Source: Thermosipho japonicus
GTDB lineage: Bacteria > Thermotogota > Thermotogae > Thermotogales > Fervidobacteriaceae
Length of the DNA: 64,000 nt
Direction: 5' to 3'
Assembly (NCBI RefSeq): GCF_014201655.1
Contig: NZ_JACHEX010000002.1
Span: forward strand, 124,001 to 188,000
The notes beneath the pieces were generated by a model that did no database searches, was not told the origin of the DNA, and saw nothing but the letters and a program-made list of their open reading frames with translations. Positions 35,421-41,444 of the stretch are shown here, one piece after another. Numbering within the stretch: the stretch's first letter is position 1; the number at the start of each line of letters is the position of its first letter. Made by a program: the position numbers and the translations under genes.

Positions 35421-36455
35421 ATGACTAAAGAAATAAATATTAAAAATGTTAAAATTGGCGGAAAAAATCCGGTTGTAATACAATCCATGACTAATACAAA
35501 AACAGAAGATATAAAAAACACCTTGCAACAAATTCAAAATTTATACAATGCAGGATGCGAATTAGTTAGAGTTTCAGTCCCCACTTTTGAAGCTGCTAAA
35601 GCTTTAAAAACAATAACCAAAGAATCTCCAATCCCAATTATAGCTGATATACATTTTGACTATAAGCTTGCAATAGAAAGCATTAAAAATGGAGCCAGTA
35701 AAGTTAGAATAAACCCTGGAAATATTGGAAATGATGAAAAAGTAAAAGAAATTATTAAAGTTGCAAAAGATTATAATGTTCCTATAAGAGTAGGTGCAAA
35801 TTCAGGATCCATTCCAAAAGAATTTGAAAAGCTTCCTAAAATTGATGCACTATGCCAAGCAGCACTAAAAGAAGTTAGGTTACTCGAAAAATTTGGCTTT
35901 GAAAACATTGTAATTTCCGTAAAAAGCTCAGATGTTATTGAAACAATAAAAGCATACGAAAAAATTTCAAAAATGACGGATTATCCACTTCATATTGGAG
36001 TTACAGAAGCAGGAACATACGAATGGGCAATTATTAAATCTTCAACTGCTTTGGGATATCTTTTATATAAAGGCATAGGTGATACAATAAGGATTTCCAT
36101 TGCAGGAGATCCTATAAAAGAAGTACTGGCTGCAAAAAAACTTTTAATATCTTTAAATCTCAGAAAAGGAATACAAATAATAGCATGCCCTACTTGCGCT
36201 AGAACCACAATAGATGTTGAAAAATGGGCTAGTATCATTGAAAAAAATTTTTCAAAGGTTGAAAAAAACATAAAAATAGCAGTTCTAGGATGTGTTGTAA
36301 ATGGTATTGGAGAAGGAAAAGATGCTGATATTGGAATTGCAGGAGTTCAAAATGGATTTTTGCTATTCTATAAAGGGAAGATAGTAGGAACTTTCAAAAA
36401 AGAAGAAATTTTTCAAGTTCTAGAAGACTATATTATAAAAGTGGAAGAAGAATAA
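35421..36455 (+). CDS. ispG: 4-hydroxy-3-methylbut-2-enyl diphosphate synthase
   Basis: IspG is the [4Fe-4S] enzyme that opens methylerythritol cyclodiphosphate to HMBPP in the MEP pathway. The 344-residue protein shows [47 protein letters not shown], and cluster cysteines in ACPTCARTT and [10 protein letters not shown]. The length is standard for the short bacterial type. It has an AAGGAGG ribosome site, is a single-gene unit, and its 3' end overlaps the convergent clamp-like gene by 23 bases. Confidence 0.96.
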
Positions 36456-37464
36456 ATCTTCTTTTTTGCATAGTTGATATTATTAAATACTTTTCACCTT
36501 TAAAGAACAATAATGTTTCGCTACCTATTCTATTTAAAGCGCTTCTTAAAAAGTAGGCGTTTGTTGTTGTCTGGAAAATATATTTACTACTAATATCTAT
36601 ATGCCCTCTATATTCCATATTTTCAGAAAAAGCATAAAAATAAAGCCCTTTTTCATTACCAAATATTTTTAGTCTTGAGTATCTTCCAGAAATCATAGCT
36701 CTTCTTAAAAATCGTCTTATACTTTTTAAACTAACCCTTAAAAATTCTTCAGACTTTTCAATTTCATTTTCTAATGGCACAAGATCCAAGTGATCGAGTT
36801 CCTCACCACACACATTAAACAAATAATCTGATGACAAAACCAATTTATTAAGTCCTTCACCAACACTTAATTCTCCACTTTTTATTTCAGACAAAGCCTT
36901 TATCAAATGCCGTGCTGAATAATAAGGAATCCTCCAAGAATATTCCTTACTTTTCTTATCTCTTACAACATAATTAATAATCCTGCCATTTTCTGCTACC
37001 ATTCTTACTTTACTTCCAAAGTAAAAATCCACATAACTTCCTTCTTCCAAGTGACTTGATACAAAGTCTAGATCATTTACAAATACATTTATAGGAATAT
37101 TAATTAATTCTTCATATCTTTCTTCAAAGTTCTTGAAAGAAAAACGTTCTGTCTTTAATTTCAAATTTTCGTCTTTTGCTTTTAATACAACATAATTTCC
37201 ATCAGAATAAATTGAGATGTTACCTGAGAGTTCAAATACAAAAAATTTCAATATATCTAATGGAACAGAAAAAGAAAGAGTTGTCGGACTCATTTCTGAA
37301 ACTTTTGCCTTTAAACTTAGACAGCCATCACTACCATAAAGATTTAAAAATCCGTTTTCATATTTAAATCCAACTATTCTATTTGTTTTTTCAACTGTTC
37401 CTACTGTTTTATCTATTAACTTTAACACTCTTTTTAACTCTTCCACGTTTAAAAATACCCTCAT
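36433..37464 (-). CDS. Divergent DNA polymerase III beta-clamp-like protein
   Basis: The 343-residue protein has the three-domain rhythm of the sliding clamp: an opening [45 protein letters not shown] in domain [17 protein letters not shown] in domain II, and the closing FILLPLL, the counterpart of the typical VMPLRL end. Sequence identity to ordinary clamps looks low, so it is either a fast-evolving DnaN or a second clamp paralogue. No dnaA or recF is nearby. The assignment rests on pattern, not on an alignment. Confidence 0.62.
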
Positions 37465-37513
37465 AAATTCACCTCTATTTAATTCTACATCATTTATTTA
37501 AAAACTCAACAAC

Positions 37514-37542
37514 TTGATTAATCCCCACAAATATGATATAAA
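37514..37542 (+). promoter_or_regulatory. Promoter of the pyrimidine operon
   Basis: TTGATT (37514-37519) and TATAAA (37537-37542) are separated by 17 bases, with TGA directly before the -10 as an extended element. Transcription would begin near 37549, about 26 bases before the leader peptide ATG. Confidence 0.8.
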
Positions 37543-37574
37543 ATTATAAGGTAAGTTCAATGGGGGGTATAAAA

Positions 37575-37628
37575 ATGAAAACTTTCGAACAAAAATTAAA
37601 AATTAATATTTTTCACATAAATCCTTGA
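37575..37628 (+). CDS. 17-residue leader peptide of the pyr operon
   Basis: The short frame encodes MKTFEQKLKINIFHINP and stops with TGA. GGGGGG lies 7 bases upstream as a ribosome site. Its last codons run through a U-rich stretch (AATATTTTT) and the stop codon touches the first base of the terminator stem at 37628. A ribosome near the stop would prevent the hairpin from forming, as in the E. coli pyrBI leader. A longer in-frame start at 37560 is possible but lacks as good a site. That it is translated is inference. Confidence 0.65.
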   Translation: MKTFEQKLKINIFHINP

Positions 37629-37657
37629 AAAAGGGGCTCACTATTGGGCCCCTTTTT
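37628..37657 (+). terminator. Attenuator terminator ahead of pyrC
   Basis: AAAAAGGGGC (37628-37637) pairs with GCCCCTTTTT (37648-37657) around a 10-base loop, followed by CTTT. It lies between the promoter and the first gene, after the leader peptide, so it should stop most transcripts before the operon unless it is prevented from forming. Confidence 0.9.
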
Positions 37658-37674
37658 CTTTAGCTGTGGGGGAG

Positions 37675-38811
37675 GTGAAATTTATTTCGGTAAAAGTGTA
37701 TGATCCTTATCAAAAAAAGCTTTTCTATGAGGAAATTTCTTTGCCAAAAAACATACGTTCTGAGAAATTAGTTGTTGTTCCAACATTTTTTGACTTTCAC
37801 ACCCATGTAAGACTATTAGAAGATCAAGAAGATTATGAATCTTTAAAAAAAGCTTGTATAGCTGGTGGCTTTTCCGAAGTTCTAATTCAACCAAACACAA
37901 AACCAAGGCTAGAAAATAGTAAAGTCCATGAAAAACACAAAAAACTTTCTGAAAATCCATACGTTAGATTCTACAGAACAACGTCATTTTTTGGCTCCCA
38001 AGAACCAAACAACATAGATATTCTATGTTATTCCACTGATGGCATTGAATACAATTACAATGATTTAGTAGAAAATTTTTCAAAGAAAAAACCACACTTT
38101 CTTCTTGACCACAGTCAAATGTTTGAACATCCGGGAATTTTTTACAAAAAAATAGAAAATCTTCCCAAACGGCCAATAACCAATGAAGCTATTGCAGTAG
38201 CTAGAACTATCTTAACAGGGATTGAATTTGGTTTTAAAGATTTTCATATTCAGCACATTTCATCAATTTACACACTGGAAATGATAAAATTTCTAAAAAA
38301 ATATGCAAATATAACCTGTGAAGTAACTCCACACCACCTTTTATTAACAAATGAGCATATCAAAAATTCAAACTTTAAAATCAACCCACCCCTTGCTGAC
38401 CAACAAACAAGAGAATTTTTAATTGAGGCCGTAAAAAACAATGATATAGATATTCTTGCTACTGATCATGCACCACATCCTGACAAAAAAAATGACTTTG
38501 AAAAAGATCCATATGGTACTTCAAATATTGAAATCGCATTTTCTGCGTTTTATACTGCTATTGAAGACCTTATGATAGTAGTTAACAAACTTTGTGACTC
38601 ACCAAGAAGACGATTAAAAATAAAGCCAAAATTTGATTCAGAAAACTTTGTAGTTGTAGATTTAAACCAAGAATTTATAGTTGATAGTACAAAATTTTAC
38701 AGTAAAGGCAAAAATTGCGCTTTTGATGGTATGAAATTAAAAGGTAAAGTTATTGGAGTAAAAATAAATGGAAAATGGGGGTTTTGGGATGGAGAATACT
38801 TACTTGACTAA
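37675..38811 (+). CDS. pyrC: Dihydroorotase
   Basis: PyrC cyclises carbamoyl aspartate to dihydroorotate. Visible metal ligands are FDFHTHVRL near residue 38, HFLLDHSQMFEHP, DFHIQHISS and the ATDHAPHP motif near 268, typical of the amidohydrolase type. The start is uncertain. GTG codons at 37666 and 37675 lack a spaced ribosome site, while the perfect GGAGGTGA at 37671-37678 is placed for an ATT codon at 37684. The coordinate given is the conservative GTG. It is the first gene of pyrCKDFE. Confidence 0.9.
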   Translation: MKFISVKVYDPYQKKLFYEEISLPKNIRSEKLVVVPTFFDFHTHVRLLEDQEDYESLKKACIAGGFSEVLIQPNTKPRLENSKVHEKHKKLSENPYVRFYRTTSFFGSQEPNNIDILCYSTDGIEYNYNDLVENFSKKKPHFLLDHSQMFEHPGIFYKKIENLPKRPITNEAIAVARTILTGIEFGFKDFHIQHISSIYTLEMIKFLKKYANITCEVTPHHLLLTNEHIKNSNFKINPPLADQQTREFLIEAVKNNDIDILATDHAPHPDKKNDFEKDPYGTSNIEIAFSAFYTAIEDLMIVVNKLCDSPRRRLKIKPKFDSENFVVVDLNQEFIVDSTKFYSKGKNCAFDGMKLKGKVIGVKINGKWGFWDGEYLLD

Positions 38812-39436
38812 GAAAGATGTAATTCAAATAAATGAAGATACATTCATAGTTACATTTAATGAAAAATTTAAATTTGATGAGGGCCAATTTATAATGATTC
38901 AAACTCCCTCACTAACAAGAAAACCTTTTATACTTGGAACATGGAAAGGCAACATAGCTGTATCAGTTCAGATAAAAGGAAAAGGAACAAACTATATCGT
39001 CTTTCAAGGAGAAAAGTTTAAAGCACACTTTCCATTAGGTAATAAATTCATACCACCTGCAGGCAAGGGCATAGTTATATCATCTCCAACATGTATTACT
39101 TTAGCAAATCTTTTACATGAAAAATATTCTTGTGATGTACTTATTGGAAGCAAAAGTAAAATAAATTTCGAACTTCCTTTTGAAAGCGTAATTGGAAATG
39201 AAGATTTTTCCAAAAAAATAAAAACATTAAAGACATACGATTGGTACCTTGTAAGTGGTTCAAAACAAATGGAAGAATTTGTTCTTTCAAACATTGAATC
39301 TAAAAATGTTTTTGTGTCGCTTGAAGAATATATGGGATGTGGTATTGGCGCTTGTAAAAGCTGTGCTGTTTTTACAAAAGAGGGTGTAAAGCACGTCTGT
39401 ACAGACGGACCAATATTTAGGAGGGATATACTATGA
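38789..39436 (+). CDS. pyrK: Dihydroorotate dehydrogenase electron-transfer subunit
   Basis: PyrK carries FAD and a [2Fe-2S] cluster and passes electrons from PyrD to NAD. The 215-residue protein has the ferredoxin-reductase-like part (TRKPFILG, IKGKGTNYIVF, FPLGNKFIPPA) and the C-terminal cluster motif in YMGCGIGACKSCAVF with a further cysteine in KHVCTDGPIF. The ATG at 38789 overlaps the pyrC end by 23 bases and follows a G-rich ribosome site; an upstream in-frame GTG/ATG region is less well placed. Confidence 0.93.
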   Translation: MENTYLTKKDVIQINEDTFIVTFNEKFKFDEGQFIMIQTPSLTRKPFILGTWKGNIAVSVQIKGKGTNYIVFQGEKFKAHFPLGNKFIPPAGKGIVISSPTCITLANLLHEKYSCDVLIGSKSKINFELPFESVIGNEDFSKKIKTLKTYDWYLVSGSKQMEEFVLSNIESKNVFVSLEEYMGCGIGACKSCAVFTKEGVKHVCTDGPIFRRDIL

Positions 39437-40251
39437 ATCTAAACCCACCTCTAGTTATAGCTTCTGGACCTGGAGGAAGTGGAGAATATCTAAGACTTAT
39501 AAACCCAAAATATGTAGGTGCATATACACTAAAAACTATAACCTTAAATCCAAAACCAGGAAACAAAACAAAAAGAATGGAAAATTTGGAAAACTATATA
39601 ATTAATAGCATCGGACTTGAAAATCCTGGAATAGAATATGTTATATCAAACATTGACAAATTCGTACTTAAAGAAACAAAAACAATCCTTAGTCTTGGAG
39701 GAGATAGTAAAGATGAATACATAAAAATTGCAGAAAAAATTGCACCGCATGCTAAAAAATTTGAAGCAATTGAATTTAATTTTTCTTGCCCAAATGTAAA
39801 AAAAGGGGGACTTTCAATTCTTTCAGACTTAAATGAATGGCAAGAAATTCTTGAAAATGTTCGAAAAATACTTCCAGATTCATTTTTAATGGCAAAATTA
39901 AGTATTGAAGGAAATTTTGTGGAAATTTTGTCAAGAAAAGTGAAAGAATTTGGATGGAACGGCCTTACACTAATAAACTGTGTAAGAGGTCTTCTAATAA
40001 AAGATGGAAAAATAGTTACAGGAGGACTTTCGGGACCCATTCTAAAACCCATAGCATTGCGAGCAATATATGAAGTTAGAAAAGTCCTAAAAGATATATA
40101 CATAATAGCTTCAGGAGGTATATATACAAAGAAAGATGTAGATGATTTCCTTTTAGTAGGAACAAATGCTATTTCAATAGGAAGCGCATTATTTAAAGAT
40201 CCCCAAGTTGTTGAAGAACTTGGAAAATACTTGAAAGGAGTGAAAAGATGA
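39433..40251 (+). CDS. pyrD: Dihydroorotate dehydrogenase B, catalytic subunit
   Basis: PyrD oxidises dihydroorotate to orotate with FMN and works with PyrK. The 272-residue protein shows the family features VIASGPGGSGEYLRL, GLENPGIEYVI, IEFNFSCPNVKKGGLSI (active-site cysteine region), LTLINCVRGLLI and GGLSGPILKPIALR, then IIASGGIYTKKDVDDFL and NAISIGSALF. It overlaps pyrK by 4 bases (ATGA) and pyrF by 4 bases. Confidence 0.95.
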   Translation: MNLNPPLVIASGPGGSGEYLRLINPKYVGAYTLKTITLNPKPGNKTKRMENLENYIINSIGLENPGIEYVISNIDKFVLKETKTILSLGGDSKDEYIKIAEKIAPHAKKFEAIEFNFSCPNVKKGGLSILSDLNEWQEILENVRKILPDSFLMAKLSIEGNFVEILSRKVKEFGWNGLTLINCVRGLLIKDGKIVTGGLSGPILKPIALRAIYEVRKVLKDIYIIASGGIYTKKDVDDFLLVGTNAISIGSALFKDPQVVEELGKYLKGVKR

Positions 40252-40859
40252 TACCTGTATTGAGCTTAGATATGGAAAACCCCTTGGAATTCATTGATAA
40301 ATATGGAAGTTTTGATGTTGTAAAGGTAGGGCATAACTTGGCTATTTTCGGCAAAAAAATTCTAGATGAATTTGAAAAGAGAAATACCAAAGTAATATTA
40401 GATTTGAAATTTTGTGATATTCCCTCAACAGTTTCTAGATCAATCAAAAGCTGGGATCATCCGGCTATAATAGGTTTTACAGTCCATAGCGCTGCTGGAA
40501 TTGAAAGTGTCAAGGCAGCGCTTGATTCAACAGAAAAAATCATTTTCTCAGTAGTCAAATTAACTTCTCAAGTTGGAGAATTATCAGACTATCTAAAGAC
40601 AATAGAAGAGCTTGAAAACATCAACAGTTCGTTTGTTCTTCCTGGGCGTTGGGCAATAAATTTAAGAAAAAAACTCAGTGGCAAATTTTTAGTTCCAGGC
40701 ATAAGAATGCAAGTCAAAGCAGATGATCAAAAAGATACCATTACATTGGATCAAATAAAAGATATTGCAGACTTTGCAGTTTTAGGTAGAGAAATCTACC
40801 TCAGTGAAAATCCAAAAGAAAAAATCGAAAAAATCAAGGAGGAATTAAAATGGAAATAA
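40248..40859 (+). CDS. pyrF: Orotidine 5'-phosphate decarboxylase
   Basis: PyrF decarboxylates OMP to UMP. The 203-residue protein has [21 protein letters not shown], the catalytic [11 protein letters not shown] segment, [16 protein letters not shown], and [16 protein letters not shown] with the phosphate-binding arginine. It belongs to the short form and follows pyrD with a 4-base overlap; its own stop overlaps pyrE by 10 bases. Confidence 0.95.
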
Positions 40860-41416
40860 AAGAAATCCTTGAAAAAACAGGTGCACTTTTGTCGGGACAT
40901 TTTTTACTTTCATCAGGAAATCACTCCGAAAAATATGTTCAATGCGCAAGGCTCTTCGAGTTTCCTGCATACGGTGATATGGTGGCAAAAATGCTTGCCG
41001 AAAAGATAGAAGAATACAAACCAGATTTAATAATTGGCCCTGCAATGGGTGGAATACATCTTGCATACTCGGTTGCAAAATATCTTAATATTAGAAATAT
41101 CTTTGCTGAAAGAGAAAATGGTATTATGACACTTAGACGTGGATTTAAAATAAATAAAGGCGAACGTGTTGCAATAGTTGAAGATGTAATAACTACAGGT
41201 AAATCAGTAAAAGAAGTAATTGAAATAGTAAAAAATAGTGAAGGTAATCTTTGCTGCATTGGCTCAATCATAAACAGATCTAGCTCAAATTTATTCGATG
41301 TTCCATATGAATATTTAATAAAACTAGAACTCCCAATTTACTCTCCAGATGAATGCCCGCTCTGTAAAAAAAATATTCCACTTGAAAAACCAGGAAGTAG
41401 ATTCATTAAAAAATAA
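40850..41416 (+). CDS. pyrE: Orotate phosphoribosyltransferase
   Basis: PyrE makes OMP from orotate and PRPP. The 188-residue protein shows [52 protein letters not shown] and the PRPP motif [27 protein letters not shown] segment near the C-terminus holds two cysteines; the type with this tail occurs in thermophiles. It is the last gene of the operon, followed by a hairpin. pyrB and carAB are not in the window. Confidence 0.95.
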
Positions 41417-41444
41417 ACAAAGCGTGGCAGATGCCACGCTTTGT
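41417..41444. terminator. Hairpin between the pyr operon and the sugar-binding gene
   Basis: A perfect 12-base stem, ACAAAGCGTGGC with GCCACGCTTTGT, has a 4-base AGAT loop. On the minus strand it is followed by TTGTTTATTTTT, and on the plus strand the T content is poor. It probably ends both the convergent pyr and sugar-binding transcripts, more efficiently the latter. Confidence 0.88.

Follow-up and report, generated by a model that had tools for sequence, protein, structure and literature searches.

Among enterobacteria, a race between ribosome and polymerase that senses nucleotides is a textbook example. For the pyr leader of Thermus ZO5, Van de Casteele et al. reportedly proposed in 1997 that PyrR and a translating ribosome, rather than an antiterminator, prevent the terminator from forming. 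The E. coli pyrBI leader, which we inspected, carries the 44-codon frame pyrL running through its hairpin and, about 28 nt ahead of the hairpin, a U-rich stretch. In pyrBI the leader gene itself contains the terminator, whereas amino-acid attenuators have theirs more than 20 bp beyond the leader; in an E. coli test, termination dropped from about 90% to below 10% once a stop codon had been placed 5 bp from the terminator (PMC4824070). Here we describe the leader of the pyrC operon in Thermosipho japonicus, analysed within a 64,000-nt stretch of the genome (the window). Like that of E. coli pyrBI, it has a leader frame that overlaps an intrinsic terminator before the pyr genes, with a GC-rich stem and a U-tract, and no site for an RNA-binding protein was found in it. 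We propose that this region is a ribosome-blocked transcription attenuator of pyrCKDFE, paced by the polymerase under the supply of pyrimidine nucleotides, a reading to which we assign a probability of roughly 50%. The parts, their order, their conservation and the lack of a PyrR loop are observed; the blocking is argued by analogy with published work on E. coli, and the pyrimidine signal is what we infer.

Promoter, leader frame and terminator ahead of pyrC

The elements of the leader and the operon are as follows, in window coordinates:

37514-37519, plus strand: -35 element TTGATT, read from the sequence; TTGAT and the 17-nt spacing are kept in four of four genomes
37534-37542, plus strand: extended -10 element TGATATAAA, with TATAAA at 37537-37542 and TG at 37534-37535; the block AAATATGATATAA is invariant in four genomes
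37562-37567, plus strand: GGGGGG, predicted ribosome site of the leader frame, 6-8 nt before the ATG in four of four genomes; anti-SD pairing of -9.5 to -10.7 kcal/mol
37575-37628, plus strand: 17-codon leader frame MKTFEQKLKINIFHINP, ATG at 37575 and stop TGA at 37626-37628, with 16-18-codon equivalents in three other genomes
37609-37613, plus strand: U5 run, a possible pause site, in this species and its near-twin only (G000 and G024)
37627-37658, plus strand: terminator hairpin of 14 bp with a loop of 4 and a U-tract at 37653-37661, from folding and conservation
37668-37678, plus strand: ribosome site GGGGGAGGTGA of pyrC, -17.1 kcal/mol with the anti-SD
37684-38811, plus strand: pyrC, dihydroorotase (NF006840, 634 bits), with a probable ATT start at 37684
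38768-39436, plus strand: pyrK-like electron-transfer subunit of dihydroorotate dehydrogenase (family search)
39433-40251, plus strand: pyrD (family search)
40248-40859, plus strand: pyrF (TIGR01740)
40850-41416, plus strand: pyrE (TIGR01367)
41417-41444, no strand assigned: hairpin between pyrE and a convergent gene, where the operon probably ends (consensus scan)

A leader frame and a terminator ahead of pyrC are thus confirmed. An earlier note on this DNA had described a promoter, a 17-codon frame with its own ribosome site and a strong terminator whose stem begins at the leader stop, and all three stand. The promoter elements, TTGATT and an extended -10, are separated by 17 nt and kept in four genomes; GGGGGG, ATG and TGA can all be located, and GGGGGG, an ATG and a stop codon recur in the genus; and the 14-bp hairpin, whose position is likewise kept, has a stability of -22.9 kcal/mol on its own, a 5' base that starts inside the stop codon and a 3' side that merges into U5CU3. 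The leader as a whole folds at -26.9 kcal/mol compared with a mean of -18.9 for shuffled sequences (z -2.75), and 0 of 200 shuffles folded as well. As in pyrBI, an intrinsic terminator lies between the promoter and the first pyr gene, and the frame would, by its position, bring a ribosome onto the stem, the stop codon forming the base of the stem in four genomes. From the promoter spacing, transcription of pyrC would start at about 37549-37550. A consensus scan of the window listed neither the promoter, because its -10 ends in A where the scan requires T, nor the leader hairpin, because the U-run sits within the 14-bp stem.

The gene to the left (36433-37464, minus strand), which has no match to any NCBIfam family, is divergent from pyrC, and the leader hairpin therefore serves the pyrC operon only, while the interval 37465-37683 is shared by two divergent starts. 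A sigma-70-like promoter of the divergent gene (37533-37560, minus strand) overlaps the pyr promoter, with the -10 elements almost superposed.

The SD of pyrC is unusually long. At normal distance from it there is no in-frame NTG codon in any of the four genomes, and G025 lacks one altogether from the preceding stop up to the start region. The start is probably ATT (G000, G024 and G025) or ATA (G023), the only codons that fit the SD. Two other genes in this genome likewise have a strong SD followed by a non-standard start, ATT for a membrane peptidase-like gene (about 32295, minus strand) and CTG for a gene on the plus strand (about 29739), and such starts may be common in this genome and have nothing to do with the switch.

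Two alternative arrangements of the leader were discarded: initiation at the ATG at 37560, by a one-base break of that frame in G024, and a frameshift fusion of leader and pyrC at CCT-TGA, by a relative frame that varies among species (+1, +2, 0). The CCT just before the leader end (37623-37625, with equivalents in L003 and L004) is conserved as nucleotides despite differing codon positions, and could pair weakly with GGGGGG. In a search for conserved structure, the SD region of the leader folded no better than shuffles.

Conservation in the genus and the U-run

Our genus comparison comprises four genomes (G000, G023, G024 and G025), G000 and G024 being nearly identical; a contig search for further Thermosipho genomes returned only the relatives already compared and distant ones, and viral contigs gave distant relatives only. 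All four keep TTGAT-17-TATAAR, the invariant block, a GGGGGG exactly six long with an ATG 6-8 nt later, a 16-18-codon frame and the hairpin, and in each the stem begins with the last bases of the stop codon. The stem pair beside GGGG is A-U in G000 and G024 and U-A in G023 and G025, a compensatory change. The leader peptide drifts: it reads MKTFEQKLKINIFHINP in the two near-twin genomes and MKILFFNKRENKYYIKNT and MYKIYSNKSKYVKNKS in the others, so that position is kept and sequence hardly. In all four genomes the distance from stop to stem is about zero (1-2 nt from the stem or inside it), which fits direct ribosome blocking. When shuffled leaders were given the ATG, the share with a stop at -4 to +1 nt relative to the hairpin was 39%, 5.7% and 2.6% in the three independent species, and the product of these chances is 6e-4. 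The frame statistics are weak on their own because the leaders are short and AT-rich, and the genus alone lends modest support. The earlier note had looked to conservation across Thermosipho and relatives of a short frame with silent substitutions, the U-run and the hairpin: the frame and hairpin are conserved, but the U-run is not, and silent changes are too few, the leader frame having one synonymous change only, between the near-twins.

A U-rich stretch ahead of the terminator is indeed present in this species, as U5 about 18 nt upstream of the hairpin, but in G023 the longest such run is a U4 close to the start, G025 lacks even three U in a row, and a U-rich pause tract before the terminator is not conserved among the four genus genomes. 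The likeness to pyrBI drawn earlier therefore holds for the geometry of leader and terminator but not for a conserved UTP-pause tract, and we do not call the locus a pyrBI-type UTP attenuator. It has been argued that, without a pause, ribosomes seldom catch the polymerase in the first 100 bp (PMC4824070), and this poses a difficulty where the leader is 54 nt long and lacks a pause site. In a toy race model with equal per-base kinetics and assumed rates, low UTP lifts read-through from 0.32-0.42 to 0.88-0.91 in three Thermosipho-like leaders; every leader responds to low UTP and almost as much to low ATP, and UTP specificity is therefore not encoded in an obvious way. Pacing by pyrimidine nucleotides would be our best guess for the signal, at about even odds, with a sensor of general coupling as the main rival.

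PyrR and leaders elsewhere in the Thermotogales

A PyrR gene is present in the genome, its product scoring 229 bits against NF003549 (cut-off 138). The pyrC leader has no RF00515 match and no occurrence of TCCNGNGAGG with up to one mismatch, in agreement with the earlier statement that no PyrR-binding loop is seen there; an Rfam search at low threshold gave nothing beyond sub-threshold matches at the pyrC leader. In the same genome RF00515 matches before purE with 61 bits, above the cut-off, and before a uraA-like permease with 33 bits, below it. At purE the SD of the leader frame is partly sequestered by pairing within the loop ACCUUUAAUUUGGUCCCGUGAGGCCAAAAAGGAG.

This PyrR loop precedes purine genes, purE-purC-purQ-purL (L034 1501-1642; G000:C1:378831-378960 and downstream), as it also does in L031, L032 and L033, and its 3' side covers the SD of a leader frame of 21-31 codons, which runs into or through a terminator. 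At the uraA-like permease (L041 288-368; L051 2480-2540) a PyrR loop lies over the SD, which looks like direct translational repression.

Outside the pyrC leaders of the genus, 18 further leaders could be delimited: 14 of pyrC (four from group g9, one from g7 and nine from g2/g3) and four of purE from the four genus members. We take g9 to be Pseudothermotoga-like and g2/g3 to be Fervidobacterium-like. In 18 of 18 there is a start codon with an SD, and the frame that it opens reaches into the terminator or passes through it. The Pseudothermotoga-like leaders (L011, L012, L013 and L015) have frames of 26-43 codons with SD and terminator present, U4-U5 directly before the stem and no PyrR loop found; three of the four frames run through the hairpin and into the start of pyrC, and the fourth ends in the loop. 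Such an overlap in three of four leaders would also permit translational coupling. The Fervidobacterium-like pyrC frames (L024, L025, L027-L030, L045, L046 and L048) are 68-97 codons long, lie 120-340 nt before pyrC and cross the terminator. Each of the eight g2 frames, at 73-97 codons, stays open to the hairpin in 0.6-3.8% of shuffles and the g3 frame in 25%, chances that are not independent, the species being related. By these comparisons the wider order lends more support to a ribosome-blocked attenuator than the genus does.

In the Fervidobacterium-like pyrC leaders a PyrR loop follows directly after the start codon, and the peptides therefore begin MVNLVQRGQN or similar, encoded by the loop itself. 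These loops rest on the consensus search because an Rfam scan at E<=0.1 missed them, clear as they are. For these leaders and for purE the simplest reading would be a chain of control in which PyrR governs translation of the leader frame, and that translation in turn governs formation of the terminator. Where pyrC comes after pyrB, as in g8 and some other groups, it has no such leader directly before it; in g13 it comes after another gene, and PyrR was not found above the cut-off. The gene that we take as pyrB-pyrI has no leader comparable to that of pyrC. This probable pyrB-pyrI fusion gene (L056, upstream of 1501) has the SD GTGGGGGG right after a hairpin that follows the stop of the previous gene. 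One further pattern match to the pyrC leader in the genome was set aside, as it did not have the hairpin's layout.

The proposed switch, its rivals and known systems

In the attenuator that we propose, the polymerase would start at about 37549 and soon expose GGGGGG-ATG. A fast-loading ribosome would translate the 17 codons and, at the stop, cover the 5' arm of the hairpin, the first bases of which lie within the stop codon; with this arm covered the terminator would be unable to fold and the polymerase would continue into pyrC. A polymerase that outran the ribosome would allow the hairpin to form, and transcription would end near 37655-37661. The likeliest signal would be the pace of the polymerase, set by pyrimidine nucleotides (UTP and/or CTP): a shortage would slow it, the ribosome would catch up and the pyrimidine genes would be read.

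The same ribosome-blocked switch might instead respond to the general state of coupling or to the capacity for translation (through growth rate, ribosome loading or any slow nucleotide), while the enzymes, together with PyrR at other operons, would regulate pyrimidine supply. Neither a nucleotide-specific tract nor the leader peptide is conserved and the toy race reacts nearly equally to low ATP, all of which would suit such a sensor; we nevertheless consider it rather unlikely, given that the operon is pyrimidine-specific and that the same architecture stands ahead of pyrC in several genera. It is more doubtful that the hairpin is a weak intrinsic terminator damping expression behind a leader frame of no regulatory use: although 39% of shuffles given the ATG reach the stop position of this species, four genomes share the frame, its SD and the position of its stop, and the frames of all the other leaders compared enter the terminator. 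Less probable again is control of the pyrC leader by PyrR through a non-standard site. PyrR is encoded, and both at purE in this genome and at Fervidobacterium-like pyrC its loops overlap the start of the leader frame, but neither the RF00515 search nor that for its consensus, at one mismatch or fewer, found a site in the pyrC leader.

The earlier note had also raised the pairing of GGGGGG with the CCCC of the terminator arm. In favour of a role as an antiterminator strand, or as a site of slippage, the run is kept in all four genomes, and its duplex with the 3' arm reaches -11.2 to -13.2 kcal/mol. The local hairpin is stronger here (-22.9 kcal/mol) and its arms are adjacent, although in G025 the two are close (-12.1 versus -13.2 kcal/mol). 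For slippage with repeated addition of G, its place is about 12-14 nt downstream of the start predicted from the promoter and not at it, whereas in pyrG-type control the G run is at the transcription start. Both roles seem very improbable, and the simplest role for GGGGGG is that of the leader's ribosome site because it pairs with the anti-SD, has a normal spacing to the ATG and has counterparts in the window, where 6 of 52 frames have GGGGG near their start. A leader peptide ahead of a biosynthetic operon could finally suggest a classical amino-acid attenuator, in which the ribosome stalls at scarce codons. This we find scarcely credible: the frame has no run of codons for a single amino acid, as had been remarked before, its codon content differs among relatives, no stable upstream structure offers an antiterminator hairpin to compete with the terminator, and the stop touches the terminator, at a distance of about zero rather than more than 20 bp.

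A broader and more tentative idea is that leader frame and terminator form a conserved Thermotogales actuator with exchangeable sensors, namely a PyrR loop covering the leader start at Fervidobacterium-like pyrC and Thermosipho-like purE and a PyrR-free polymerase pace at Thermosipho-like and Pseudothermotoga-like pyrC. One genome would then use both, the sensor having been swapped without rebuilding the switch. If true, conserved leader frames in deep-branching thermophiles would mean that the principle known from enterobacteria occurs widely, sometimes joined to PyrR control and sometimes traded for it. PyrR-gated and PyrR-free leaders within one genome would be natural pairs for studying transcription-translation coupling at high temperature.

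Set beside known systems, the pyrC leader looks like a variant of the ribosome-blocked pyr attenuator; the pyrBI reading is partly supported, being right on the class of device and weaker on the signal. With E. coli pyrBI it would share a ribosome whose position decides termination, but its 17 codons end at the hairpin base, its U-tract is not conserved and its first gene is pyrC, not pyrB. It would resemble the PyrR-binding leaders of RF00515 in controlling pyr genes through a leader terminator, without the binding loop. The Pseudothermotoga-like pyrC leaders are alike in SD, leader frame, terminator and the lack of a detected PyrR loop, and differ in their longer frames, three of four crossing the hairpin into the pyrC start, and in the U4-U5 before the stem. 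With the Thermus ZO5 model the locus has in common a thermophile's pyr operon and a proposed blocking of the terminator by the ribosome; the PyrR loop is absent from Thermosipho-like pyrC, and it is the Fervidobacterium-like pyrC leaders and those of purE that fit that model better.
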